From Mesostigma viride (Eukaryota > Streptophyta > Mesostigmatophyceae > Mesostigmatales > Mesostigmataceae), in assembly GCA_009746045.1 (NCBI GenBank), contig RPFO01000131.1:1220966-1284965 (forward strand): DNA of 64,000 bases, written 5' to 3'. The number at the start of each line of letters is the position of its first letter. Positions within the stretch are counted from its first letter, which is position 1. Below the pieces are notes generated by a model that had not been told where the DNA came from, ran no database searches, and was given only the letters and a program-made list of their open reading frames with translations. Below are positions 11,312 to 64,000 of the stretch, one piece after another. The position numbers and the translations under genes were made by a program.

Positions 11312-22712
<11,401 letters not shown>

Positions 22713-26013: not shown

Positions 26014-27454
26014 ATATATGTGGCTTTATATTGGTTATGTTAAAAACAAAGGTTCCCCTGACGACCCCGCCAACTACAGAGGAGTCTGCATCCAGAGCGC
26101 CGCACTTAAGTTGTTCATGCGCATGATCCTCAACCGCCTTCGTTCTGCTCTCGACTGTCACCTTGGGGAAAGTCAAATGGGCTTCCGTCCTGGGCGCAAC
26201 ACCGTCATGGCCATCTTCGTCGCGCGTCGCCTCTTCGAGGAAATCGCTCTCCTGCAACCTGGTGAGTTTCCCGCCATCCTGATCTTCGTCGACTTCATCA
26301 AGGCTTTTGATTCTGTCCTCTGGGACGCTCTATGGGCTGTACTTGCTCGCGCTCGCGTCCCCACTCCCCTGATTACCGTCATCCGCACGCTGTATGAGGG
26401 GTCGACCACTTCGGTGCGCACTCAACACGGCATTACCCCGCCCTGCCCACTGCAGACCGGCGTCTGGCAGGGTTGCGTCCTGTCGCCGTACCTGTTTATT
26501 ATTGTAGTGGATTATGTTATGCGCCAGGCACGTGCTCGCTTTGCTAGCATTGCAGGCCGTGCCCCTGGCCTAGCGATCACGAACGAGCTTGGGGAAGGGG
26601 GCCGACTAACAAGCAGAATTTACTAGCTGACCTCATTTATGCCGACGACATCACGCTCATCGAGAAGCCGGAGTCTGCCCAACTTTGGCTGGACTGCCTG
26701 GCGCTCGAGGCTCGGGCGGTTGGTCTAGAAATCAGCCCCAAAACGGAGGCCCTGGCCCTCGGCATGGCAGGGCCCCCACCCACACTCCGCCTCTTAGACG
26801 ATGCCGAGGTCAACTACCCTACTTCAGGCCGCTTCAAGCTGCTCGGCAGTTGGCTTCCTGACTGCGAGGACGACATGACGAAACGGATCGGCATGGCGTG
26901 GGCGCACCTCCATGACCACCGCCGCTGGTGGAGCAACCCCGCCCTACCCCGGATCGTCAAGCGTGACCTCTTCAAGGTCGTCATTCTGACGATCCTGACC
27001 TACGGCGCCGAGACGTGGACACTGATGCAGGAGCTGGAGCAACGACTCGACGGCGCCGTCACCAAGATGCTGCGCAAGGCCCTTAACATCCCCTTTGGTT
27101 TGCACATTAGTAATGAGGATTTGTACGCTGATTTGCCCTATGTTTCCCACATTATTAGGCACAGGCGCCTGGGCCTAGCCGGGCACCTGGCCCGCACAGA
27201 TCAGGTAGATACCACTAGGAAGGGGGGTGTGACATTTTGTGATATTTTGTGACATGTCACGTGACATTTTGTGATGTGGATGTGACAAAATGTGACACTT
27301 TGTGATTTTTTGTGACAAAACTGTGATATTCTGTGACATTTCGTGACAAATCATGTGATAAAACCAGCATATTCTGTGATTATCTTTGTGACAAAAACAA
27401 GGAAATTATCACAAAATATCAATGTCACGACTTGACAAAACGCACTGACAAAAT

Positions 27455-43876: not shown

Positions 43877-45037
43877 AATAATAATAATAATAAGCACGTG
43901 ACTGCGTCACGTGGGTGCCAATACAGAGTAAAGGAACCTTCAACCCTATATACACCGTGAGAAGGAGGGAGGGCGCCCTAGCTTCTCTCACTGCCGCAGG
44001 TGGGCAGGCCACAGAGCGCTCTCTCCACGGCATGGTGCCGGGGCGCAACACTGTGGGTGCAATACAACCAGTGCAATACCATAGGTAGGCTGACGCATAG
44101 CTTATGCTACAAATGTGAGGTGGGCTCAAGACGTCGGCTAATTAAGGCGCAAGCTGATGGCCACAAGGTGCCAGAGCTAATTGAAGGTACTATAACGCTG
44201 TGCGCTAATATCGTTTCAAGTGCTGTAATGCCTAAGCTATCCCATCATCGATTGCCCCCATCTAGACAACTAGCTGGAGTGCTCTATCCCGGGGAAGCCC
44301 GGGGGGGCTTCCACAGTTTCTTGTTGACATAGAGGTCCCCGCCCCGCCAGTACACTTGGGGCTTCTCGGGGTTGGTCTTGTGGCGGATGTAGTCGGGCCA
44401 CTGATCGCGGCGTTGCTGCTGCTGGGCTGGCGTCAGGTCGTCGTCAAGCGACCAGGAGGTGTCCACCAGCTTCTTGCGGCGAGAGAGGAACCGAACTCGG
44501 GCTGTGATGTCGCTGAAGGTGAGGACCACTGGAGGGGGCCCAGCCTTGGCCCGTGGATGGGGCAGGCGGTAGGCGCCCTGCAGTATCACACCTGGCAGCT
44601 GCATGCGCGCCAAGAGCTGTTTCTTCAGCTCGTCGAGAAGAGAGTCTGGGGTCTCCTCCGGCAGCATGTCGAAGCGCCTGAGGATGACCCGGCAGCGGCG
44701 ACGGCCGCGGTCAGCGGCCTCGCGGCGCGTGTCTTCCAGCTCCTGGAGCTTGGTGGTGATGGCGGTCGTGGTAGAGGATGCCTGGCTCTTGAGCAGGTCC
44801 GCCCAGGAGGCGCGAGTCGAGGGGTCATCGCTAGCCCTACCAGCAGGTTGGGCGGCGATGGTGGCCGTTCGCTCGGCGATCTCGGGGACCTGCGTGGCCA
44901 GGGCGTCTACCTTGGCAGCAACTGCCTCAAGTTTCACGGTGCCTTGGCCGACTCGGCCTTCCACCTGGTTAAGGCGGGTGGTCACAGTGGCTGTGGCCTC
45001 GGAAACTTTGGTGGCAATGTGCTCTTGCGTAGCAGTA
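43877..45037 (-). mobile_element. ORF1-containing LINE with type II stem-loop
   Basis: Flanked by the 12-bp TSD GAAGAAGATGAT at 43865-43876 and 45038-45049. Minus strand: 5'-truncated ORF1, 3' UTR, stem-loop at 43895-43913 (CACGTGAC/GTCACGTG) and a (TTA)n tail instead of (TTAA)n. The same 3' UTR occurs in the fragment at 59734-60368. The stem-loop is shared with the reverse-transcriptase LINEs at 26042-35225 and 48400-51116, although the UTRs upstream differ. Confidence 0.88.
44284..44985 (-). CDS. LINE ORF1 protein, best preserved copy (233 codons)
   Basis: Open frame with a heptad-like N-terminus (LNQVEGRVGQGTVKLEAVAA, a probable coiled coil), an RRM-like core (CRVILRRFDMLPEETPDSLL, ARMQLPGVILQGAYRLPHPR), FSDITARVRFLSRRKKLVD and a C-terminal segment beginning SLDDDLTPAQQQQRRDQWPD. 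The order coiled coil, RRM and C-terminal domain is that of L1-type ORF1p, a trimeric RNA chaperone. The frame probably began upstream, since the element is 5' truncated, so the Met may not be the original start. Confidence 0.7.
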   Translation of the reverse strand: MTTRLNQVEGRVGQGTVKLEAVAAKVDALATQVPEIAERTATIAAQPAGRASDDPSTRASWADLLKSQASSTTTAITTKLQELEDTRREAADRGRRRCRVILRRFDMLPEETPDSLLDELKKQLLARMQLPGVILQGAYRLPHPRAKAGPPPVVLTFSDITARVRFLSRRKKLVDTSWSLDDDLTPAQQQQRRDQWPDYIRHKTNPEKPQVYWRGGDLYVNKKLWKPPRASPG

Positions 45038-48399: not shown

Positions 48400-51116
48400 T
48401 TATTAATTAATTAATAGACACGTGACTGCGTCACGTGAGCATAAGTCCTCAGTGGGAGGGGAACATGGGATGGAATGGATGGTATAAGCTATCTAGGTCC
48501 TAGTTACAGGGGTGTGGGCACCGCGGCCCGAATCGCTATGAATGCCATACTTGGTCACACGCGGAGCCCCCACAGGCTTGGGGGTGGTCTCCTTCATCAC
48601 TACTTGCCATCTATCCTTGCGCACCATCTGCCTCCATATTACAGACAAACCAGGAGGCTGCCCGGGGGTGAGCCCGTCACGTCTAGTGTAGCACATGTCC
48701 ATGCCGAGTCTATCACGAAAAGTCCACGGGTGGCGGCCCTGCCGCGCGCGGCCGGGGGCACGCCAGGTGAGGACATATCGCCCAGGCTGGGCGGGCTTGG
48801 TGCCAGCTAGTCTATCTGATGTATCTACCTGATCTGTGCGGGCCAGGTGCCCGGCTAGGCCCAGGCGCCTGTGCCTAATAATGTGGGAAACATAGGGCAA
48901 ATCAGCGTACAAATCCTCATTACTAACGTGCAAACCAAAGGGGATGTTAAGGGCCTTGCGCAGCATCTTGGTGACGGCGCCGTCGAGTCGTTGCTCCAGC
49001 TCCTGCATCAGTGTCCACGTCTCGGCGCCGTAGGTCAGGATCGTCAGAATGACGACCTTGAAGAGGTCACGCTTGACGATCCGGGGTAGGGCGGGGTTGC
49101 TCCACCAGCGGCGGTGGTCATGGAGGTGCGCCCACGCCATGCCGATCCGTGTCGTCATGTCGTCCTCGCAGTCAGGAAGCCAACTGCCGAGCAGCTTGAA
49201 GCGGCCTGAAGTAGGGTAGTTGACCTCGGCATCGTCTAAGAGGCGGAGTGTGGGTGGGGGCCCTGCCATGCCGAGGGCCAGGGCCTCCGTTTTGGGGCTG
49301 ATTTCTAGACCAACCGCCCGAGCCTCGAGCGCCAGGCAGTCCAGCCAAAGTTGGGCAGACTCCGGCTTCTCGATGAGCGTGATGTCGTCGGCATAAATGA
49401 GGTCAGCTAGTAAATTCTGCTTGTTAGTCGGCCCCCCTTCCCCAAGCTCGTTCGTGATCGCTAGGCCAGGGGCACGGCCTGCAATGCTAGCAAAGCGAGC
49501 ACGTGCCTGGCGCATAACATAATCCACTACAATAATAAACAGGTACGGCGACAGGACGCAACCCTGCCAGACGCCGGTCTGCAGTGGGCAGGGCGGGGTT
49601 ATGCCGTGCTGAGTGCGCACCGAAGTGGTGGACCCCTCATACAGCGTGCGGATGACGGTAATCAGGGGAGTGGGGACGCGAGCGCGAGCAAGTACAGCCC
49701 ATAGAGCGTCCCAGAGGACAGAATCAAAAGCCTTGATGAAGTCGACGAAGATCAGGATGGCGGGAAACTCACCAGGTTGCAGGAGAGCGATTTCCTCGAA
49801 GAGGCGACGCGCGACGAAGATGGCCATGACGGTGTTGCGCCCAGGACGGAAGCCCATTTGACTTTCCCCAAGGTGACAGTCGAGAGCAGAACGAAGGCGG
49901 TTGAGGATCATGCGCATGAACAACTTAAGTGCGGCGCTCTGGATGCAGACTCCTCTGTAGTTGGCGGGGTCGTCAGGGGAACCTTTGTTTTTGTACAGCA
50001 TAATACGGTAGCTGTGCTGCCACTCAGGAATCGGCGGCGCGTCGGCAAGCAGGATCCGGTTGCAGACGTCAAGCAGGAACCCCGTGAGCGCCGTCAGCTT
50101 AATCACCGGGGCTGGGAGCTGGTCAGGTCCAACGGCAGCATAGAAGCGGAGTTGCTTGGCGGCGGTGCTCAGCTCGAGCTCGGTGAACGGCGGGAGCTCG
50201 TTGGGGTGGGCCAGGGGTTCCGTCAGGGCTGGGTACGTGTAGTCCTGCTCAGCGGCGGGCGGCGTGGGCGGCGCAGGGACGTCCGCCGGTGCTACTGCCA
50301 GGCGTGCGGCCGCCAGAGGGCCAAGCGGCGGAGGCGGCGGGGGGGCGCCGAGCAGCCGGGACTGGGAGGAATACCACTGGTTGAGCTGCTGCTGCGGTGA
50401 GCCAGAGAGCGTCCGCGGCGCCGGCTGCGCGCCGCCGGCGGGCCGTTGGGCGTGACGCAGGCGGGTCCAGGCGTACTTGCCGTGCTGGTCCTTGAGGTGG
50501 GCGAAGTACTCGCGGACATGAAGGTCCTCCTGCTCCTTGGTCGCCTGCCGGATGGCCGAGTGGTAATCGGCTTTGAGGCGGGCGTAGCGGGCGGGGTCGC
50601 GGTTGTCGCGCAGGGCTTGCCGGGCCTGGATGACGGCGGGGAGCCGGTGCAGGCTGGTGAAGCGGGGCCGGCGGCGGGGGGGCAGTAGGGCCCCGGCCGC
50701 GGGCAGCTTGTCAGCGAGGTGCCGAAGGGCCGATGCCGGGCCGGCAGCGAACAGCTGGGCGTGGCTGGCCGGGATGTCCAGCGCGTCGACGAACGCCTCT
50801 GCGGCGCGCTTGTGGGCGCGTTTTTCAGGGAAGTCCTCCAGAGCGTCGTCAGATTTCTCGAGCAACTGAAGTGTGCGCAAATCAGGTGGTGCCACGTGCT
50901 TACGAAAGGGCGAGGGGAATCGCAGGCGGATGCGGGCGGTGACGATGCGATGATCGGAGCGCACCAGGGGGATCACATGCGAGCGAGCAGCTAGTACAGA
51001 TCCTTGATGACGCTTGCGCATTACAACATAGTCAATGCAGCGTTCAGTGCCAGTTGGCGAGGTGTGTGTGACCAAAGCATCTGGACTATGTGGAAAGCGG
51101 GTGTTCTTACATGAAC
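48400..51116 (-). mobile_element. LINE with nearly complete reverse-transcriptase ORF
   Basis: Flanked by the 12-bp TSD ATCTTACATGAA at 48388-48399 and 51117-51128. Minus strand, type II stem-loop at 48419-48437 and (TTAA)n tail. 5' truncated within the endonuclease domain. At the 5' junction a second partial copy of the target (TTCTTACATGAA, about 51103-51115) is present. Very similar to 26042-35225 and the youngest layer of a four-deep nest. Confidence 0.92.
48493..51116 (-). CDS. LINE ORF2: endonuclease C-terminus plus reverse transcriptase
   Basis: An 874-codon open frame within the LINE; the frame extends by chance to 51327 in flanking satellite. N-terminal part: CIDYVVMRKR and VRSDHRIVTARIRL, fitting the last blocks of an APE-type endonuclease (the SDH motif). 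Reverse transcriptase: NYRGVCIQSAALKLFMRMIL, SQMGFRPGRNTVMAIFVARR, VDFIKAFDSVLWDALW, GVWQGCVLSPYLFIIVVDYV, then IYADDITL with catalytic YADD at 49384-49395. C-terminal block: LTYGAETWTLMQELEQRLDG, RRLGLAGHLARTDQVD, LTWRAPGRARQGRHPW. The fingers/palm motifs look closest to the RTE clade. It would carry out target-primed reverse transcription at the insertion site. 5' truncation removes most of the endonuclease, so it is not autonomous. Confidence 0.88.
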
Positions 51117-51373
51117 ATCTTACATGAAACAAATATGAATATTGAACAAATGAACTCAGATCAGGCTGGAAACTTGTAAGCAGCATGTAGACCATCAAAA
51201 TAGACTGTTTACAGCTCAAAAGGTGACAAATGAAAGGAAAACAATGCAGTTTGATGCCATTGCCACTGTTCTCTTGAATAAAACATTTTTGTGCGACCAA
51301 ATGAAATTCATGGGCATTCATTGACAATCCTCGAGGTTCGTGCAGTCTGAATTTCGTACAACGGTAGTATGAA

Positions 51374-52462
51374 GTTCAGACTGGACGGGCAGTCTCGGGT
51401 CTTCGATGAATGAATTCCAGTGAATGCAAGATGAATTGCCGAGACCGACCTGTTAGCAAGGAAATTCGTCCTTTTCGTATGTTCAGACTGGACGGGCAGT
51501 CTCGGGGCTTCGATGAGTGAATTCCAGTGAATGCAAGATGAATTGCCGAGACCGACCTGTTAGCAAGGAAATTCAAGTCCTTTTCGTATGTTCAGACTGG
51601 ACGGGCAGTCTCGGGGCTTCGATGAGTGAATTCCAGTGAATGCAAGATGAATTGCCGAGACCGACCTGTTAGCAAGGAAATTCAAGTCCTTTTCGTATGT
51701 TCAGACTGGACGGGCAGTCTCGGGGCTTCGATGAGTGAATTCCAGTGAATGCAAGATGAATTGCCGAGACCGACCTGTTAGCAAGGAAATTCAAGTCCTT
51801 TTCGTATGTTCAGACTGGACGGGCAGTCTCGGGGCTTCGATGAGTGAATTCCAGTGAATGCAAGATGAATTGCCGAGACCGACCTGTTAGCAAGGAAATT
51901 CAAGTCCTTTTCGTATGTTCAGACTGGACGGGCAGTCTCGGGGCTTCGATGAGTGAATTCCAGTGAATGCAAGATGAATTGCCGAGACCGACCTGTTAGC
52001 AAGGAAATTCAAGTCCTTTTCGTATGTTCAGACTGGACGGGCAGTCTCGGGGCTTCGATGAGTGAATTCCAGTGAATGCAAGATGAATTGCCGAGACCGA
52101 CCTGTTAGCAAGGAAATTCAAGTCCTTTTCGTATGTTCAGACTGGACGGGCAGTCTCGGGGCTTCGATGAGTGAATTCCAGTGAATGCAAGATGAATTGC
52201 CGAGACCGACCTGTTAGCAAGGAAATTCAAGTCCTTTTCGTATGTTCAGACTGGACGGGCAGTCTCGGGGCTTCGATGAGTGAATTCCAGTGAATGCAAG
52301 ATGAATTGCCGAGACCGACCTGTTAGCAAGGAAATTCAAGTCCTTTTCGTATGTTCAGACTGGACGGGCAGTCTCGGGGCTTCGATGAATGAATTCCAGT
52401 GAATGCAAGATGAATTGCCGAGACCGACCTGTTAGCAAGGAAATTTTAGTCCTTTTCGTATG
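51374..52462. repeat. 109-bp tandem array, ten units
   Basis: Units begin (GTTCAGACTGGACGGGCAGT) at 51374, 51481, 51590 and then every 109 bp to 52353. Inner units are almost identical. The first and last share a variant (GATGAATGAATT versus GATGAGTGAATT). Each unit holds the inverted pair GTCTCGG/CCGAGAC, able to form a hairpin. Confidence 0.95.
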
Positions 52463-52517
52463 TGCGCGAAACATGAGGGGTGGGAAAACGGAATAAGCAC
52501 AGAAAACGGAATCAGCG

Positions 52518-53201: not shown

Positions 53202-53405
53202 TTCAGACAACTGGTCTCAGACATGCACGGGGCTCGGCGTGCCATGCTTCCACGTTTGTTGTCTCTTTTCAGACAACTGGTCTCAGACATGCACGGGGCT
53301 CGGCGTGCCATGCTGCCACGTTTGTTGTCTCTTTTCAGACAACTGGTCTCAGACATGCACGGGGCTCAGCGTGCCAATGCTTCAGTCCACGTTTGTTGTC
53401 TCTTT
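53202..53405. repeat. 66-bp tandem array, three units
   Basis: Units start at 53202, 53268 and 53334 with TTCAGACAACTGGTCTCAGA and contain CATGCACGGGGCTCGGCGTG and CCACGTTTGTTGTCTC. The third unit is slightly diverged. Confidence 0.92.
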
Positions 53406-53412
53406 TCATATA

Positions 53413-55420
53413 CTGTCACATGTCACCATTTGAGCTCAGATCGAATGAGCCCAATTTTTGTAGGTGGTCTAGTATTATGGTTTAAATGTTGCTTGCAAGA
53501 ATCCAGCTTGATATGAGTTCATTTGGTCATGATTCCTATTTGTTTCATGTAAGAAACCGGTGCAAATGGCGTAAAACTGCATATTCATACTGTCACATGT
53601 CACCATTTGAGCTCATAATGAGCCCAATTTTTGTAGGTGGTGTAGTATTATGGTTTAAATGTAGCTTGCAAGAATCCAGCTGGATATGAGTTCATTGGTT
53701 CATGATTCCTATTTGTTTCATGTAAGAAACCGGTGCAAATGACAAAAGGTTGCATATTTATACTGTCACATGTCACCATTTGAGCTCATAATGAGCCCAA
53801 TTTTTGTAGGTGGTCTAGTATTATGGTTTAAATGTAGCTTGCAAGAATCCAGCTCGATATGAGCTCATTTGGTCATGATTCCTATTTATTTCGTGTAAGA
53901 AAACGATGAAAATGGCGTAAAACTGCATATTTATACTGTCACATGTCACCATTTGAGCTCATAATGAGCCCAATTTTTGTAGGTGGTGTAGTATTATGGT
54001 TTAAATGTTGCTTGCAAGAATCCTGGCAGCTCGATATGAGTTCATTTGGTCATGATTCCTATTTGTTTCATGTAAGAAACCGGTGCAAATGACGAAAAGC
54101 TGCATATTTACACTGTCACATGTCACCATTTGAGCTCAGAATGAGCCCAATTTTTGTGGGTGGTCTATTTTCATGGTCTAGATGCTGCTTGCAAGAATCC
54201 AGCCTGAAATGAGTTCATTTGTTCACTATTCATATTTGTTTCATGTAAGAAAAGGGGGAAAATGACGAAAAACTGCACATGTATGCTGTCACATGTCACC
54301 ATTTGAGCTCAGAATGAGCCCAATTTTCGTGGGTGGTCTATTTTCATGGTATAAATGCTGCCTGCAAGAATCCAGCCTGATATGAGTTCATTTGTTCACT
54401 ATTCATATTTGTTTCATGTCAGAAAAGGGGGAAAATGACGAAAAACTGCACATGTATGCTGTCACATGTCACCATTTGAGCTCAGAATGAGCCCAATTTT
54501 TGTGGGTGGTCTATTTTCATGGTCTAGATGCTGCCTGCAAGAATCCAGCCTGATATGAGTTCATTTGTCCACTATTCATATTTGTTTCATGTAAGAAAAG
54601 GGGGAAAATGACGAAAAACTGCACATGTATGCTGTCACATGTCACCATTTGAGCTCAGAATGAGCCCAATTTTTGTGGGTGGTCTATTTTCATGGTATAA
54701 ATGCTGCCTGCAAGAATCCAGCCTGATATGAGTTCATTTGTTCACTATTCATATTTGTTTCATGTCAGAAAAGGGGGAAAATGACGAAAAACTGCACATG
54801 TATGCTGTCACATGTCACCATTTGAGCTCAGAATGAGCCCAATTTTTGTGGGTGGTCTATTTTCATGGTCTAGATGCTGCCTGCAAGAATCCAGCCTGAT
54901 ATGAGTTCATTTGTTCACTATTCATATTTGTTTCATGTAAGAAAAGGGGGAAAATGACGAAAAACTGCACATGTATGCTGTCACATGTCACCATTTGAGC
55001 TCAGAATGAGCCCAATTTTTGTGGGTGGTCTATTTTCATGGTCTAGATGCTGCCTGCAAGAATCCAGCCTGATATGAGTTCATTTGTCCACTATTCATAT
55101 TTGTTTCATGTCAGAAAAGGGGGAAAATGACGAAAAACTGCACATGTATGCTGTCACATGTCACCATTTGAGCTCAGAATGAGCCCAATTTTTGTGGGTG
55201 GTCTATTTTCATGGTCTAGATGCTGCCTGCAAGAATCCAGCCTGAAATGAGTTCATTTGTCCACTATTCATATTTGTTTCATGTAAGTAAAGGGGGGAAA
55301 TGACGAAAAACTGCACATGTATGCTGTCACATGTCACCATTTGAGCTCAGAATGAGCCCAATTTTCGTGGGTGGTCTATTTTCATGGTCTACATGCTGCC
55401 TGCAACAGTCCAGCTTTAGG
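53413..55420 (+). repeat. 173-bp satellite, right arm, about 12 units
   Basis: CTGTCACATGTCACCATTTG begins each unit at 53413, 53590, 53763, 53936, 54113, 54286, 54459, 54632, 54805, 54978, 55151 and 55324. The four inner (left) units are diverged (GTAGTATTATGGTTTAAATG), while the eight nearer the terminus are almost identical. Confidence 0.95.
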
Positions 55421-57204
55421 TACCCTCAGATCTGAAAGATTTTTTTTTTACTCATTTGAAGACTTGTGAAATTGAGCAAACACCTATGAATCCCCTCTAA
55501 AAGGACAGGCTAACGATCCGGCAAACTGTGGGTGCAATAAGACCCATGTGAGCATGTCATAGCAAGGAGCGTGGGCAAGTAATCTGAACATAGCCAGGGC
55601 GTAGCATGGCTGTACTAGAACTAGGCTAAGGCTATGGCTGGTTGTGTACCGTGCGTTGGCGGCACGTGACTAGGTTTGTTGGCACAGCTAGGCAAACATT
55701 CTAGGCATGGCTGCCTTAGCGACAGTGACTCCAATGGTTACAAGCTAGGGCTATTGCTATTCTAGCCCGCTGGGGGCGTCCACATCTTGCACACTGCAGC
55801 CCGCTGGGGGCGTCCACATCAGGCATCGATGCCGGGCCCCAGTGGTGTTGCCGCGGAGCCGAGGGAGCGGGACCAGCCGCCAACCTCAGGTAATGCGGCG
55901 GGAAGGGCTTCGATGGAACCGGGGGTTTTGGCTGGGTCGCTAACCCAACACGACTTGCTTGGTGAGGCGGATGGTCAGCCACGGGGCGAGTATACGCTGG
56001 CGCCCAGGCGCCTGCCTTTCGATCAAGCGCGAGACGGATTGCACGAGGAGAACGGGGCAGGGCTGCATGGCGCGCGCGATGGACCCACACAGGGGTGCAC
56101 CAGGACGCATGCTGCCAGGCGGGGCCTCAATTCCGTTTGGGCGAGGCGGTGGGGCGCTGACCGGCGGGTCGACTGCACGGTGGTCAAGTGTGCCAATCGG
56201 GCGCATTCCGCCCATGGAGGACATAACCACGCCGCTGGCTTTCCGAGTACGGGAGGCAGCACGACCAAGCACGCTGGCGCAGGGACGCGCAGCTCAGCGA
56301 CCGCCGGAGGATGCCGATGGGGTGCAGTACCCGCAAAGGGTGCGCCTCATACCGGAAGGCGCGAAGATGCCCACCCTACCACGGGTGGACATGCGCGAGA
56401 AGTTCTCCACAACCGGCAATCTGGCCACGCTGGCGCAGGCCTACAACGCGTACAAGTCATGGATTGATCTGCAATACATGACTACGCAAGGCGCTGTAAT
56501 GCATGAGTTTGTGATGAACAACATGCATTTTTTCTTTCACGGCCTTACGCTGAGGCGAGTGGCTAGGCTGGTGGAGCAGTGGAGAGAGGTCTCGCTGTAC
56601 ACGCGTCACACGGACGTGTGGTTCGGCTTCGACGGGCGTGGCCAGCCCGACTATGACAACATCATGTATGGTGTCGACCCTGCCGAGGAACTGTGGGGCC
56701 TCCTTCGCCAGGAATACCCGGTGGAGACCATCAAGGCAGAGCGTGAGTGGCGCAGTTTCAAGATAGCCGAGGGTGAAACCCCGGAGCAATCTTACGAGCG
56801 CCTCATGGAGTTCGCCGGCGAAGTGGAGGACTGGTCCGAAAAGCTGGCGTGTCAGAAATGGCTGCAAGCGCTAGGCTCCAAGGAGATGGAGCTGCCCACG
56901 CCGCCCAACGGCCAGCCGTGGCGATTGCGGTCACTGTGCATTGAGGTCAGGGCCATGATGCGACGACACGCGCAAGGCCGGATCTCGGTAAGCACGGTGG
57001 TGGCCGAGCTGCAGGCCAAGGTCGACGCGCTGACCAAGGCCAAGTCGGGTGAGTCGTCTGCCACAAGACAAGCGCGCCCGCAAGGCGGCCACGGTGCTAG
57101 CAGGAACCAAGGGGGGTCTCGCAACGCCTCATCGCATGATGCAACCCAGGGTAACGCCGCTGGCGGCAACAAAGACGCTGCCGCCCCGACGCGAGCTGGG
57201 GGGG

Positions 57205-59733
57205 CACGTCCTCACAGACGGGTACTAGGACGGATGCGCGCAAATCGGGCTGCTTCCTTTGCGACAAGGATGGGCACCTTAGTCGCGAGTGTCCAAGCCG
57301 CTGCACGAAGCCGCATGGGGCAGACACGAAGTGGCACCTGATGAACAAGTGTCCAGCCGCGGGCATCAAGACGGTCCACTTCGCCGAGATGGCGGGCAAG
57401 ACCGACTCGATGGAAGCCCAGGTGGCTGCCATCAAGCATGGTGAGGAGGCGACGGCGCCCCCCAACCAATTCGAGACGGTGTACCGGGAGGACCCATTCT
57501 GGGCGCCCATGCCGGGTGACGTCGAGATCAACGCTGCGGAGGCTACCAAAGGCAAGCAGGCACGCAGCCCGCTTTCTTTTCAGCAGGCACCCATGTTGCC
57601 TGCCGGGCAGTTGCCCGCGTCCTTTTCCATGCCGCTGGCTGGGGTGCAATCTGCTTTTGAGCATGCGAACCCTGCTGGGCTGGAGCAGCGTAGGCGATTG
57701 GCGCCTGTGTACCCAATGCCGTTCATTGTGGACGTACCCATGTTTTCAGCACGGCAGGTGGTCGACACCTTCGGGCAGAAGGGGGTTGAGTGGCTGGGGT
57801 CGGTTGTGTCCGAGATCCAGTTGTTCGCAGATGGGCATGATGTGCGCACCTTGCGCAATTCTGAGTCCGTCACCTACGGGCGCCAGCCGGTAGAAGCCGC
57901 AGTGCCCGTGGTGCAAGCGGGAGTGGTCAGCACAAGTAGCCAGCAGCGCACTAGTGCAGTCCCCCAGGTTCCCACGGTGGTTCCATACCCCAATGGTGAG
58001 CCGTCCATGGCGTTCCAAGCAGTTGGAGCCTGTGGAGATGTATGGAGCGACATGGTGACATGTCCGTTGGTTGGCGCAGTCAAGCTTGATAGCGGTGCTC
58101 AGCCGCTAGTCATCAGCACGGACTTGGCCACCATGCTGAACCTGACCTACGAGAACGGTGGCTTAGTGGAAAGCCCCGTGTCTGTGTCAGGTTGGCAGGG
58201 TCCGGCTAGTAAGCCGTACGCTATGACGGCGGTTAAAGTCAACGTGATTTTCAATCCGTTGCGCGCCTCTAGCATGACCACCGTGTCCGCGTATGCGCTG
58301 GTGGTCAACAAGTGTGGATATTCCGCACTACTCGGGGTGGATGTCCTTGCTCGCGCCATGGTTCAGGTGGACTATAGGGCGGAGGAGGCATCTTACATCC
58401 CTGATTGGGATGGGGCTGGCCTGAAGCGGGCCAGTGTGCCGGTCTCATGCTTCAGTTCTTCAGCCGGGGCTGCACGCCTCAACCCTTCCGCGGCTGCGGG
58501 CGTGGTGGAGGTCAGCATGGTGGAGGTACGGGCGGCGGGCTCATCGGCGTGGGACAAGCATCGGACGGTGCTGCCCCAGCCAACGGCGAGCATTGCCAAG
58601 ATGCGCACGCAGTGGTCGCTGGATGCTGTGACGTCCACGCGGCAGCTGGCTATGCGCAAGCGGGTGACTGAAGCCGTCATCACCATTCCTCAGATGGCCA
58701 GCCATGGCCTCACTTTGCTGCAACCGGGTGTCTCGGAGGCCCAAGGTAATTTTTCTGCTGCAATCTTACCGCAGGCCCCTGATTTTGCCAAGGGTGCGGT
58801 AGTGTTGGAACTGTTTGCGGGGATCGGAGGGGGCATTGCAGGCTTTTTGGCCGCAGGCGGCGTGTGCCGTAAACTCATCGCGGTAGAGCCATCGCACAAG
58901 GCGCGTCAGGTGTACTTCAGTCACTGTGGCGTGTTGTCGCGAGAGTATCCCGCGCAGTTTCCGCCATCAGCATGGCGTGACCCGTTTGGGGAATGTCCTC
59001 AAGATATCCGAGCCATCGGTGAGGTGCAGGTGCAGCAGTTGTTGCGCAGGCATCATGCCATCGACTTGGTAATTGCGGGTTGGGAGTGCCAGGGCCTGAG
59101 CCAGGCAGGGCAAGGGCGGGGGCTAGCCGATCCGCGTAGCGCGCTGTTCTGGGAACTGTTGCGTGTGGTGGGACTGTTGCAGTCGCGTCAGCCCCATCCG
59201 CCTGCGTATCTGTTTGAGAACGTTGTGGCGGGTGACAGCCCACATCAGGCGGTGCGGGAGGACTGGGCTACAATCGTGGCACTCCTGGGGGAGCCCATCG
59301 TGTGTGACAACGCAGGGCTGGGTGGGCTCACGCATCGTTTGCGTGCCTATTGGACCAACGTGGCGTGTGCGACCGATGTGCAGGCGGTCTTGGGGGCCGT
59401 AGCAAGGCAGCATCCGAGTGTGTCTGCGGAGGTAGCATTGCCTTCCCACCTAGTCACGCAGAAGGTGGATAGCGAGGATCGCCCACCGTATGCACGCGTC
59501 AACCGGGTCGGGAGCCCCATGTGTGCACTGCCGACCCTGGTCAGTTACCAAGGGTCGACAGCATACCGTGATCGGGGTAAGGGTCTCGTTTGGGACACTA
59601 CCACCGGTCTGTTGGTGCAGCCACCCGCAGAATTTCGTGAGGCCAGCATGGGTTTTCATGTCGGGGCCTCGGCGCTGCCGGGCGTGCTCGAGAGTGAGCG
59701 CTGGTCTTTGATAGGCCAGGCTATGTCGGTGTT
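57205..59733 (+). CDS. gypsy pol, first part: zinc knuckle, protease, methyltransferase
   Basis: Open frame with first in-frame Met at 57341, but coding clearly starts earlier. A CCHC knuckle (CFLCDKDGHLSREC, C-x2-C-x4-H-x4-C) lies at 57251-57292, upstream of that Met, so expression needs a frame change from gag at the G7 run or a separate start. Counting from 57341, the aspartic protease is at about residues 235-350, with VKLDSGAQPLVIS (Asp250; DSG rather than the commoner DTG) and the flap-distal SALLGVDVLA. A linker follows, then the methyltransferase from about residue 475. The frame is cut at 59733 by a LINE insertion and resumes at 60380, after the second TSD copy. Confidence 0.85.
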
Positions 59734-60420
59734 CCTCTCTCGCCGCAGTTCGGTTCCTCTCTCGCCGCAAGAAGCTGGTGGACACCTCCTGGTCGCTTGA
59801 CGACGACCTGACGCCAGCCCAGCAGCAGCAACGCCGCGATCAGTGGCCCGACTACATCCGCCACAAGACCAACCCCGAGAAGCCCCAAGTGTACTGGCGG
59901 GGCGGGGACCTCTACGTCAACAAGAAACTGTGGAAGCCCCCCCGGGCTTCCCCGGGATAGAGCACTCCAGCTAGTTGTCTAGATGGGGGCAATCGATGAT
60001 GGGATAGCTTAGGCATTACAGCACTTGAAACGATATTAGCGCACAGCGTTATAGTACCTTCAATTAGCTCTGGCACCTTGTGGCCATCAGCTTGCGCCTT
60101 AATTAGCCGACGTCTTGAGCCCACCTCACATTTGTAGCATAAGCTATGCGTCAGCCTACCTATGGTATTGCACTGGTTGTATTGCACCCACAGTGTTGCG
60201 CCCCGGCACCATGCCGTGGAGAGAGCGCTCTGTGGCCTGCCCACCTGCGGCAGTGAGAGAAGCTAGGGCGCCCTCCCTCCTTCTCACTGTGTATATAGGG
60301 TTGAAGGTTCCTTTACTCTGTATTGGCACCCACGTGACGCAGTCACGTGCTTATTAATTAATTAATTAATGTCGGTGTTGCAGGTCGGGTATGTGCTGCT
60401 TGCATCGGTTGCCGTGCGCC
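58790..60420 (+). CDS. C5 cytosine DNA methyltransferase domain inside gypsy pol
   Basis: Transfers a methyl group from S-adenosylmethionine to cytosine C5. Motifs in canonical order: I VLELFAGIGGGIAGF (SAM binding, residues about 488-502 from 57341), II IAVEPSHKARQVY, III near PQDIRAIGEV, IV DLVIAGWECQGLSQAG with the catalytic Cys583, VI YLFENVV with Glu626, VIII THRLRAYW, a target-recognition-like part (RVGSPMCALPTLVSYQ), and IX/X SERWSLIGQAMSV. Motif IV reads ECQ where most enzymes have PCQ or PCN; the nucleophilic Cys is kept. Spacing and motif IV resemble bacterial-type C5 enzymes more than plant CMT/MET1. The LINE at 59734-60368 sits in motif X and disrupts this copy. Placement between protease and reverse transcriptase shows it is part of the polyprotein. 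Confidence 0.88.
59734..60368 (+). mobile_element. 5'-truncated ORF1-type LINE inserted in the methyltransferase
   Basis: Flanked by the 11-bp TSD ATGTCGGTGTT at 59723-59733 and 60369-60379. Contains the last part of ORF1 (SLDDDLTPAQQQQRRDQWPD, VYWRGGDLYVNKKLWKPP), 3' UTR, type II stem-loop (60331-60349) and (TTAA)n tail. Nearly identical to the 3' half of 43877-45037. Its 5' end has a short duplication of CCTCTCTCGCCGCA. Confidence 0.92.
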
Positions 60421-62690
60421 AGTCTGGGGGGGCGTCCCCAGCCAATCCGCCTCAGCAGGTTGAGGCGCGCGCAGCCAAACTGAAGCGCCCTGCAGCGACG
60501 GGGACTTCATCAGCATGGGGGTGGCGTCTGCGACAGGTGTGGACTATCATTCTCATGACCGCCCTGCTGACCAGCACCGTGCTGGCCGGCGAGCCCACGC
60601 TGCATCGGGTAATACACCGTGCGGCACGCGAGGCTCCGGCGGTGGGTGTCACACCAGGCGTGGCAGCCTTTTCCTTGTTCCACGACGATGCGGCTAGGGC
60701 GCCGCATCTTGAGGCACATGCGGTAGCTGTGGGTGATCCCGCGGATACGCACCCCTGGGCTATTGGCGAACACCTTTCTGATGCGCAGCGCTCAGCCATG
60801 CTAAAGTGGCTAGGCACTGCAAGGGGGGCCTTCGCTTTCACAAGTGATGAACTGGGGTGTTTCAATGGTGGGACCATGCGTGTTCCATTGGACACTGACA
60901 CTCCTTTGTTCCGACGCCAGCATCGCCTGAGTCAGGCCGAGTTGGATTTTGTAGCCGAGCAATGCAAGGAGTTAGAGGATGCCGGTATCATCAGGCAATC
61001 TTCCTCCAGCTATGCCGCTGCCGTTGTCGTTGCGCCCAAGAAGGACGCTATCACCGGGGCATGGACGGGTATGCGCATGGCCACCGATCTGCGGTTGCTG
61101 AATGCACACACACCCGTGGACCGTTACCCCATGCCACGTGTGGATGATGTCCTGGATAAGATATCTCCTCATGTGAAGTTTGTGTCCTCGCTGGACCTGC
61201 GTAGCGGCTTTCATCAGATCGCAGTTGCGCCGGAGGATCAGCGGAAGCTTGCATTCTGGGGGGGCGGCAATTTGTATGAGTGGGTGCGCATGCCCTTTGG
61301 GCACCGCAACGCTAGTGCTGTTTTCCAACGAGCTATGGAGGCCGGGCCCACTTCAAATGTTCCGCCGTCCAAGCCAAGTGTGTGACACTTTTTCGCTATT
61401 TTCGCAAAAAAAAAATAAAATTTCGCACGAGTTCGCGTGATTTTCGCGTGATTTTCGCAAAATTTTCACACATTTTCGCACGATTTCGCACGATTTCGCA
61501 CAATTTTGCATGATTTCGCACAATTTCGCATGGATTTCAACCAAGGGTCGTTTTGGGGAGTGACGTTTGACAAAATTTCGCATGAATTCACACACGTTGT
61601 GCACATCAAAATTTTTTACCGTCGACATTTTTCACATGAAATTTCGCACAATTTCAGCAAATTTCGCACAAATTCGCACGATTTCAGCAAATTTCACACG
61701 ATTTCAGCAAATTTCGCACAATTTCGCACGATTTCGCACGACGAATCACTCTGCAGAGTGACGATCGTCGAAAAAGTCAAAAAAACGACCAAAAGTGTCA
61801 CACTTTTCGGAACATTTGAAGTGGGCCCGGCCTGGACAAAGTGCTTGCAGGTCTTCCTTTCGCCGCTTGTTACATTGATGATGTAATCGTCTTTAGCGCG
61901 ACATTTGAGGAGCACCTGGCGCACTTGGAGCAGGTTCGCTTGGCTCTCGAGGAGCATAATATGCGGCTGCACCCTGAGAAGTGCAAGTTCGCCCAGCGGA
62001 CCCTCTCATTCCTTGGTCATCAGATTGTGCCGGGTGGCCGGACGCCTGATGCCGCCAAGGTCGAATCCATTGTGCAGGCCGCCGTACCCACGGATGTCTC
62101 AGGGGTGCGGGCGTATTTGGGTTTGGCTGGCTATTACCGAGGTTACATTGAGAACTTCAGCAGCAAGGTGAAGCCCTTGACCGAGTTACTCAAGAAGGGG
62201 TGCGTGTGGGCGTGGGGTCCCGCACAGCAACGCGCCATCGAGACAATCAAGCAGGAGCTCACGTCGGCCCCGATTCTGCGCGCCCCTGACTATGCTTTGC
62301 CATTTGTGTTATATACCGACTGGTCCAAGGTAGGACTGGGTGCGGTCTTGGCGCAAAAGGATGGTGATGGGCGCGAGCACGTTATTGCTTATGCTAGTCG
62401 CAGCAACAACCCAGCGGAGAGCCGGTATTCTTCCTATGAGGGGGAGGCACTGGCTGTGGTGTGGGCCATCAAGCACTTTCGCCCGTATTTAGTTGGGCGC
62501 GTGTTTACTCTGGTGACAGACCACCAGCCGCTTCAGTGGCTAATGACCAACACCAACCTGACGGGTAAGCTCGCCCGATGGGCCATGATTATCCAGGAGT
62601 ACCACATGACCATTGTGCATCGGGCCGGCAAGGACCATGTCAACGCCGATGTGCTATCCCGATACGCCATGCCTACCACTGTTGACCACA
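60380..62690 (+). CDS. gypsy pol, second part: reverse transcriptase and RNase H
   Basis: Continues the polyprotein in frame after one TSD copy. First comes a hydrophobic stretch (VWTIILMTALLTSTVLAG, about 60538-60591), unusual inside a pol and possibly membrane-spanning. Reverse transcriptase: FRRQHRLSQAELDFVAEQCK, MRMATDLRLLNAHT, SSLDLRSGFHQIAV (first catalytic Asp at 61194-61196), MPFGHRNASAVFQRAMEAG, then after the MITE LDKVLAGLPF and the catalytic YIDD at 61871-61882. RNase H: LPFVLYTDWSKVGLGAVLAQ, SSYEGEALAVVWAIKHF, VTDHQPLQWL, HRAGKDHVNADVLSR. Apart from the MITE at 61346-61826 no stop was found, so this copy died recently. Confidence 0.9.
61346..61826. mobile_element. 481-bp MITE in the gypsy reverse transcriptase
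   Basis: Perfect 19-bp terminal inverted repeats GCCCACTTCAAATGTTCCG, followed by GTGTGACACTTTT at both ends. The likely 4-bp TSD is CCGG (61342-61345, 61827-61830). Discounting the element and one TSD gives the uninterrupted codons MEAGLDKVL. The interior is packed with TTTCGCACGATTTCGCACAA-type words. No coding capacity. Confidence 0.88.
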
Positions 62691-62989
62691 CTGGAGCCCG
62701 GGCCATGGGTGCCGAGGGCTCGTCGGGTTCTGTGGTCTTTGTGAACGCTGCTGGGTATGCGGCCGACGATGAGGAGGAGGCGTGGTGGCGCAGTGTCGAG
62801 TACTCTGTGGCGGACTTCGGCATCAGCGACGACCCGGTGCGGCCGTCGCCATTCACGCCATCCAAAGCTGTGTGCGCTATGGAAGAGGGTAGGTCTCTGT
62901 CCTTTGACATTGATCCTTCTCTGCAGCAGCTGATCGCTGTGCAGGCTCTCTTAGCGCGTAGCTCTCTTGCTGATTGCTACACCGCTGAT

Positions 62990-64000
62990 ATCTGGCTAGA
63001 TGGTCGAGTTTTGGAGCAAGTGCAGGGTGCTGTCTTGACTCCTACTCCAGTCGATTGGACTCCTGCTCAGAAGGCGACGGAGTTGAACAGGGTGCAGCAC
63101 AGGGCTGCAACCTATGGTTGGGAAGATGGGGTTTTGTACAAGCTGTTGGGCAAGCGTAGGGTGGTCGTCCCACCGCCTGACAAGCGCGTTGCTATAGTGC
63201 AGGCGTACCACGAGCGGTATGGTCACTTGGGTGGCAATCGCACGCTCAGCCTCGTACGGACCAGCTATTGGTGGAATAACATGCGACACACAGTGGCCCA
63301 GGTAGTGGCCAGCTGTGTCCCGTGTGCTCGAACCAAGGCTAACTTTAGCGCAGATCATGGTGCCAAGAAGGAGCTGATGTCGCTTCCCATCAAGGGCTTG
63401 TTTTATCGCTGGCACGTCGATCTGTGCGGGCCGTTTCAGGAGAGCCCTGACGGCAACCTCTATGTCATGGTATGCGTGGAGAGCTTTAGCAAATGGGTTG
63501 AGTTGATCCCCATTGCTGACAAGCATGCCGCTACCACAGCGAAGCATTTTGCAGACATCATCACCAGGTTTGGGGCTCCCACGGAGGTAGTCACGGACCA
63601 GGGTGGTGAGTTCAGGGGTGAGTTCCAGGAGTTGCTGGATGGATGTCTTATTGATCACCGTCGCACTTCTCGGGAGCATCCTCAGGCCAATGGTTTGGCT
63701 GAGAGATTGGTGCAGACCGTCAAGCAGGCGCTGCGCAAGTGGAGCCTGCAGGTGCCGGAGTCGGCCAGGTGGGATCGCGAGTTGGCATGGATTGCCATGG
63801 GTTATCGCATGTCTCCCCAGGAGTCTCTCGCTACCTTCTCCCCGTATTTCCTTCTGTTCGGGCGTAATCCTCTTTTGCCTACGGAGGCACAGGTTGCGCA
63901 CCCCGAACCCATGGCCTTCGACAACGCTCAGCAATTTTTGGTTGAGGTGCTGGCCAGGGCAGAGACTTTTAAGAAGGTCATGCCCATCGCAATGAACAAC
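62990..64000 (+). CDS. gypsy pol, third part: integrase (runs off the window)
   Basis: In frame with the reverse transcriptase. Zinc-binding HHCC: YHERYGHLGGNRTLSLVR then ASCVPCART. Catalytic core: RWHVDLCGPF (Asp, codon 63419-63421), VVTDQGGEF (Asp, 63596-63598) and HPQANGLAERLVQTVK (Glu, 63701-63703), with 35 residues from second Asp to Glu. Downstream is FSPYFLLFGRNPLLP, a common Ty3/gypsy feature. The C-terminus, any chromodomain and the 3' LTR are beyond 64000. This enzyme inserts the cDNA into host DNA. Confidence 0.9.
   Translation, partial: MWLDGRVLEQVQGAVLTPTPVDWTPAQKATELNRVQHRAATYGWEDGVLYKLLGKRRVVVPPPDKRVAIVQAYHERYGHLGGNRTLSLVRTSYWWNNMRHTVAQVVASCVPCARTKANFSADHGAKKELMSLPIKGLFYRWHVDLCGPFQESPDGNLYVMVCVESFSKWVELIPIADKHAATTAKHFADIITRFGAPTEVVTDQGGEFRGEFQELLDGCLIDHRRTSREHPQANGLAERLVQTVKQALRKWSLQVPESARWDRELAWIAMGYRMSPQESLATFSPYFLLFGRNPLLPTEAQVAHPEPMAFDNAQQFLVEVLARAETFKKVMPIAMNN

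Follow-up and report, generated by a model that had tools for sequence, protein, structure and literature searches.

A Ty3/Gypsy retrotransposon of Mesostigma viride that carries a C5 cytosine methyltransferase domain

The window, the whole 64,000-nucleotide stretch of Mesostigma viride DNA that was analyzed, contains a Ty3/Gypsy retrotransposon copy with a C5 cytosine methyltransferase (MTase) domain. The first-pass annotation had described a Gypsy element encoding its own C5 MTase in the order protease-MTase-reverse transcriptase (RT), and this was upheld by a 2074-aa frame in copies free of inserts. The overall reading that we favor, at about even confidence, is that this is one damaged copy of an element that apparently multiplied recently, with the order zinc knuckle-protease-MTase-RT-RNase H-integrase-PHD. 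The element would be of the published KnitGypsy-Dnmt3 kind, and it may methylate its own cDNA and integrate from a circle. Because cytosine methylation is a main host route of transposon silencing, an element that keeps an MTase is a standing puzzle.

The window copy and its methyltransferase domain

The copy is damaged. It occupies 55820-64000 on the forward strand, as do all its domains, in three pieces that match the loci L174 and L173 at 99.7-100%; both loci are free of the two inserts found in the window copy and hold one 2074-aa frame each. No homology to L174 was seen 5′ of 55820, and the alignment to L174 of the piece 55820-59734, which contains gag, has gaps totaling 4 bp. The 3′ repeats in L170 place the 3′ end beyond the window, at about window-equivalent 67674; L170 also has a third insert past the window edge. 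The gag-like open frame (55944-57341) has no Pfam match, overlaps the pol frame, and is −1 relative to it. In L174 the gag-like frame of 615 aa, likewise without a Pfam match, is accompanied by the 2074-aa pol frame. The overlap of the two frames in the −1 sense points to frameshifting.

The open reading frame 57155-59800 (+) holds both a zinc knuckle and the C5 methylase domain. The CCHC zinc knuckle, which lies early in the pol frame (57248-57298; PF00098, E = 6.4e-4), scored 20.1 bits, 0.7 bits below the Pfam cut-off of 20.8. It is followed by an aspartic-protease-like region with the motif LDSGA (58022-58444), found with our own HMM at E = 5e-68, a value that is not independent because the HMM was built from the window element's copy, family b, and L081. 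The MTase domain (58775-59734) was recognized by Pfam, alignment, AF2 model, and HMM. Its last motif is interrupted by a LINE-like insert (59734-60368, +), absent from L174 and L173 and flanked by the 11-bp target duplication ATGTCGGTGTT at 59723-59733 and 60369-60379. A 99% copy of most of this insert sits at 43879-44500 of the window, and the insert was judged by eye to be the 3′ end of a LINE. The RT is split into a first part (61035-61340; PF00078, own HMM) and a second part (61832-62026; Pfam, own HMM) by a second insert that was missing from the first-pass annotation. Inverted ends and a duplicated TGGA mark this MITE-like insert (61340-61832, 493 bp, no strand assigned), which has no counterpart in L173 or L174. 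RNase H (62213-62602; PF17917/PF17919, own HMM) and a DDE integrase with H2C2 zinc and rve domains (63215-63997; PF17921, PF00665, own HMM) follow within the window.

In the insert-free copies the frame runs continuously from the MTase into the RT, as had been proposed after discounting the LINE, and the order of the 2074-aa frame is PR-MTase-RT-RNaseH-IN-PHD. Pfam matches in the L174 pol frame comprised methylase, RVT_1, RNase H, H2C2, rve, and PHD; the RT-RNaseH-integrase order with rve and H2C2 is that of Gypsy elements.

The presence of the MTase motifs in one frame with the upstream protease was borne out by the Pfam match, the invariant catalytic columns, and the protease-like region in the same frame. 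DNA_methylase matched ORF 57155-59800 at E = 1.6e-11 and 44.7 bits (cut-off 22). An alignment of 14 element domains had 20 invariant columns, including Cys110, Gln111, Glu153, Arg193, and Arg195; we take Cys110 to be the catalytic cysteine, Glu153 the motif VI glutamate, and Arg193 and Arg195 part of motif VIII. An AF2 model of 58760-59734, with the alignment of these 14 domains as input, reached a mean pLDDT of 89.1 and a pTM of 0.89. The catalytic motifs and the fold of DNMT3 enzymes are conserved, and profile and predicted structure favor the DNMT3 class. DNMT3A/DNMT3B and plant DRM have the same fold and motifs, with DNMT3 as the best match, but the element domain is ∼18-25% identical to them in structural alignments. 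It is not permuted, unlike DRM. No PWWP or ADD domain was found among the Pfam matches of the element polyprotein; its PHD finger lies at another place in the polyprotein. In motif IV of the window element the proline is replaced by glutamate (WECQ), and among 116 motif matches in 161 sequences xECQ accounted for 87 and xPCQ for 27.

Several tandem arrays were observed elsewhere in the window, at 51374-52463, 53202-53408, 53409-55414, and 11933-12842; they include a 109-bp unit repeated 10 times at 99% and a 173-bp unit repeated 11.5 times. The array at 53409-55414 stops ∼400 bp short of the start of element homology. The minus strand carries a LINE-type RT frame of 960 aa at 48493-51375, part of which recurs in inverted orientation at 26042-27212 (99.5%).

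Copies, termini, and integration

The 440-Mb assembly was searched for matches to the MTase domain. All 123 scored candidates (513 in a first look), the window copy included, matched it at 100% (rounded). Frames of 2074, 1042, and 1195 aa were seen in 39, 21, and 10 of these candidates, respectively, and 29 of 29 further loci that were fetched proved identical over the initial 974 bp of domain DNA. A PF00145 scan of the assembly gave 127 matches (123 of 414 candidates scored), other methylases among them. Copy numbers are uncertain because some small contigs may be redundant, but differing flanks and duplications reveal at least 8 independent insertions, and the element has apparently multiplied recently. 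A second Mesostigma family, family b (L171/L172/L177), is 67.5% identical in DNA to family a in the domain. Its frame of 1642 aa has the order methylase-RT-RNaseH-IN-PHD in L171 and L177 (L172 is truncated by the limit of its stretch), and its protease sits in an upstream frame.

Capture of a host MTase fragment by a single copy, or chimerism of the assembly, could be suspected from the rearrangement of the window copy, the only point in favor of such an origin. The domain was found in other copies on many contigs, with different flanks and duplications in those read, in relatives from other species, and in two Mesostigma families. The chance of a capture or chimera is thus negligible, and we regard it as ruled out.

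A common stop, 1521 nt downstream of the MTase start and immediately ahead of the RT, occurs in 12 loci. These comprise every fetched member of the 1042-aa class (10 loci: L182, L186, L188, L190, L191, L192, L194, L196, L203, and L204), together with L201 and L202. They may represent either a truncated lineage that spread with its MTase intact or a natural MTase/RT end as in L081. The best protein match of the searched region was the M. viride gene model P0002 (Mesvir1/13565), 99% identical over 84%. Its protease-MTase part matches at 99%, and by eye its gag-like N terminus is clearly unlike that of the window copy, which could reflect either subfamily exchange or a spliced gene model.

The termini have the layout A1-internal-B1A2B2, with split repeats and TG...CA ends; copies start with TGTCACGG and finish with GCGACA. 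The two ends of the copy on contig C133 are identical repeats of a 1282-bp unit X. At its 5′ end the C1690 copy has only the part of X that starts at base 145/146 (A), and at its 3′ end it reads B-A-B, where B denotes the first ∼143 bp of X; the 3′ end on C1657 is also B-A-B. Except on C133, typical copies, which carry A on the 5′ side and BAB on the 3′ side, therefore do not have identical long terminal repeats at both ends, and the element is filed as Gypsy because of its proteins only. The A2|B2 join was present in 8 of 10 3′ ends, the exceptions being C1468 and C1469; in family a the A|B join reads TTT-AATC. Target duplications of 4 bp, compared by eye, agreed in 8 of the 10 copies with both ends read, compared with 0 of 90 swapped pairs; the exceptions were C998 and C1646, the latter beside Ns, and the sample leaves out C2133b (no ends) and C1657 (no 5′ end). 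The C133 copy itself (C133:14671-25402; L174, L208) has a BA-internal-BA layout and no matching flanks, in contrast to the A-internal-BAB copies.

The B1-A2 junction reads GACA-GC-TGTC in family a, in family b, and in L081, with a G-run upstream of each. In family b the A repeats measure ∼1128 bp, and a 92-bp part of B2 is visible. L081 showed no A1 and no B2, and its genome contains the 19-mer that follows the G-run a single time. Inspection by eye revealed no tRNA-like primer site.

Split repeats, TG...CA ends, and 4-bp duplications together suggest integration from a circle. The G-run would serve as the polypurine tract, so that reverse transcription would yield a BA-internal-BA linear DNA whose ends could be joined into a circle. 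The integrase would then cut the built-in GACA-GC-TGTC junction between B and A and insert A-internal-B-A-B. The A1-internal-B1A2B2 arrangement is the layout of PAT/Ngaro-like elements, and the repeats might instead stem from a tyrosine-recombinase (DIRS/PAT-like) cycle. The repeats of the Klebsormidium nitens element, known by description, are termed DIRS-like in the Fig. 4 legend of PMC5890265, and those seen here in Mesostigma DNA have a DIRS-like layout. However, the Pfam matches of the polyprotein include an rve integrase and no tyrosine recombinase, and the 4-bp duplications and TG...CA ends fit DDE integration, which makes a tyrosine-recombinase cycle very improbable; DIRS/YR elements are characterized by a tyrosine recombinase and lack target duplications. 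With DDE integration from a circle, the termini offer a concrete, testable integration model for Gypsy elements with DIRS-like repeats.

Relatives, domain orders, and trees

A protein search from the window returned three proteins, Closterium among them. Starting from Closterium, 34 proteins were obtained (query included), comprising partial proteins from K. nitens (P0022) and Marchantia (P0025) and many Closterium polyproteins. A search from P0020 gave 174, and two Haematococcus lacustris proteins were among the 120 listed. Our own HMMs served to read the domain orders of 161 proteins; 5 of these came from fetched DNA and the other 156 from the searches or the window. The type I order, PR-MT-RT-RH-IN(-PHD), was seen complete or partial in Mesostigma and Closterium. 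The partial K. nitens and Marchantia proteins showed PR-MT alone; the domain probably sits in a polyprotein of this liverwort as well. The type II order, RT-RH-MT-IN-PHD, was found in 80 of the 161 proteins, with 5 more having a protease in front and partial forms besides; it occurs in Haematococcus and many further sequences. The Pfam methylase model PF00145 was reported in P0024, P0022, and P0014 and not in P0090 or P0020, and precomputed Pfam lists a methylase for 34 of the 120 listed relatives of P0020. Since type II domains often lack a PF00145 match, Pfam-based surveys would miss many of them.

The contig L081 (CADCWO010000201.1), filed in a Synechococcales MAG, encodes protease and MTase together in one frame, with RT-RH-IN-PHD in the frame that follows. 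It is an algal-looking Gypsy contig, probably mis-binned in a cyanobacterial MAG. L081 was the only whole-domain match among the best 80 of 298 relatives in prokaryote genomes, which gives no sign of a bacterial origin. Nor was a viral origin indicated: viral contigs gave 97 relatives, the best 80 of which were all partial, weak matches, and the best of them, L001, adjoins ORFs of phage-like look (by eye).

The MTase tree was built from 41 rows hand-chosen from those found, with one host DNMT3 as reference. Type II formed one group (100/99), Mesostigma families a and b grouped together (100/100), the bacteria stood apart, and P0022 of K. nitens was placed among the type I rows. Type I was not one group in the best tree (two changes) and was one group in 2% of bootstraps. 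In AU tests, neither a type I clade (p-AU 0.279) nor a grouping of Mesostigma with type II (p-AU 0.201) was rejected. All 33 element rows, K. nitens included, lay on one side of a branch with an unstarred support of 77/73, opposite a single long-branched host DNMT3; the program warned of long branches for host DNMT3, P0037, and one bacterial branch. A separate acquisition, which had been considered possible for this element, was not supported, and the tree neither established nor contradicted a single clade of all element rows, the MTase grouping with K. nitens and other green-lineage elements at this level only. Judged against the one host reference, the domain was not nested in a host clade lacking other element copies. 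A midpoint-rooted RT-RNaseH tree of 27 rows, without outgroup, split type I from type II at 100/99. The type II and Mesostigma groups recur in both trees, which indicates that MTase and RT travelled together. P0037 contains an MTase, an RT, and a C-terminal part resembling a recombinase (by eye), and is possibly a DIRS-type relative.

On domain content, the Mesostigma element appears to join the kind described as KnitGypsy-Dnmt3 of K. nitens by de Mendoza et al. 2018 (PMC5890265), with which it shares a Dnmt3-type domain in Gypsy Pol and DIRS-like repeats. For that element, purifying selection was reported and the acquisition was read as independent, in the K. nitens lineage (PMC5890265). P0022, a partial sequence, has the order zinc knuckle-protease-like-MTase. 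The two differ in motif IV, FPCQ in KnitGypsy-Dnmt3 and WECQ in Mesostigma, where there are also more copies and the terminal layout and duplications are resolved. The Mesostigma element has a PHD finger, whereas P0022 is partial and the main text of PMC5890265 mentions no PHD, nor Mesostigma or Closterium. SymbioDIRS-Dnmt3 of Symbiodinium likewise has a DNMT3-type enzyme in Pol, with proposed cDNA self-methylation, but it differs in having a tyrosine recombinase, no DDE integrase, and activity demonstrated in yeast (PMC5890265). P0037 may be of that general type; it branches apart, on a long branch. SymbioLINE-Dnmt is also a retroelement with a C5 MTase, but it is a LINE with an orphan MTase lineage (PMC5890265), and the algal Sola1 elements with their own DNA methyltransferase are DNA transposons with ParB and N4C/N6A rather than C5 enzymes (PMC12477816). 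Passages of PMC12344493 (2025) mention streptophytes and dinoflagellates alone and class the LTR elements as Copia; those of PMC11105155 deal with other subjects. In the paper listings and text passages covered, no report of C5-MTase Gypsy elements in Mesostigma, Closterium, or chlorophytes was found. The additions made here are the high copy number in Mesostigma, the presence in Closterium and probably Marchantia, the PHD finger, the resolved termini, and the second domain order in Haematococcus and further sequences. The published Gypsy case was one alga; the same kind is now seen in several streptophyte algae and a chlorophyte.

More tentatively, these elements may form an old, green-plant-wide Gypsy lineage that combines a PHD reader with a DNMT3-type writer. 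Its hybrid cycle would join Gypsy-style reverse transcription to a circle and a DDE integrase cutting the palindromic GACA-GC-TGTC, with a 4-bp duplication, and its chlorophyte branch would have the MTase between RNase H and integrase. That the Pfam methylase model lists about a quarter of the members would help explain why this branch was overlooked.

Possible roles of the methyltransferase

Selection was assessed by comparing families a and b. The pN/pS values were 0.229/0.74 for the MTase, 0.418/0.883 for the MTase-RT linker, 0.136/0.781 for RT, 0.077/0.798 for RNase H, 0.185/0.806 for integrase, and 0.166/0.806 for PHD. Synonymous sites are saturated, so that these values show constraint without a rate and a true dN/dS is impossible. 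There was no signal of CpG decay.

In the reading that we favor, the protease would free the MTase inside the particle, and the MTase would methylate the double-stranded cDNA or its circle before integration, most likely at CG sites. A new element copy would thereby resemble the methylated host genome. With many near-identical copies and a host methylome published as CG-rich, this self-methylation idea is directly testable. The first-pass annotation had stated that retrotransposon enzymes of Symbiodinium and Klebsormidium can methylate CG sites de novo. This holds for the Symbiodinium DIRS enzymes, but the K. nitens enzyme was without activity in yeast, a result termed inconclusive there (PMC5890265).

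That inactivity (PMC5890265), despite a PCQ motif, is one reason to consider that the domain no longer methylates and is retained in the particle as a module for nucleic-acid binding or folding. The glutamate in motif IV and the faster evolution of the MTase relative to RT point the same way. We nevertheless consider such a module unlikely, since the cysteine, the motif VI glutamate, and the two motif VIII arginines do not vary across the 14 divergent sequences, and binding alone would need none of them.

The C-terminal PHD finger had BAZ2B (E = 3.9e-16), Lid/KDM5, BAZ2A, and CHD4 as its nearest PDB structures, with UHRF1 lower. Several of these fingers bind histone H3 unmethylated at K4, and we infer from the similarity that the finger may be a histone reader. 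The MTase could then act on host chromatin instead of cDNA: methylation of the insertion site or of sibling copies would damp spread or hide the element. The kinship of the finger speaks for this role, which we still find doubtful, as the family is strongly spread.
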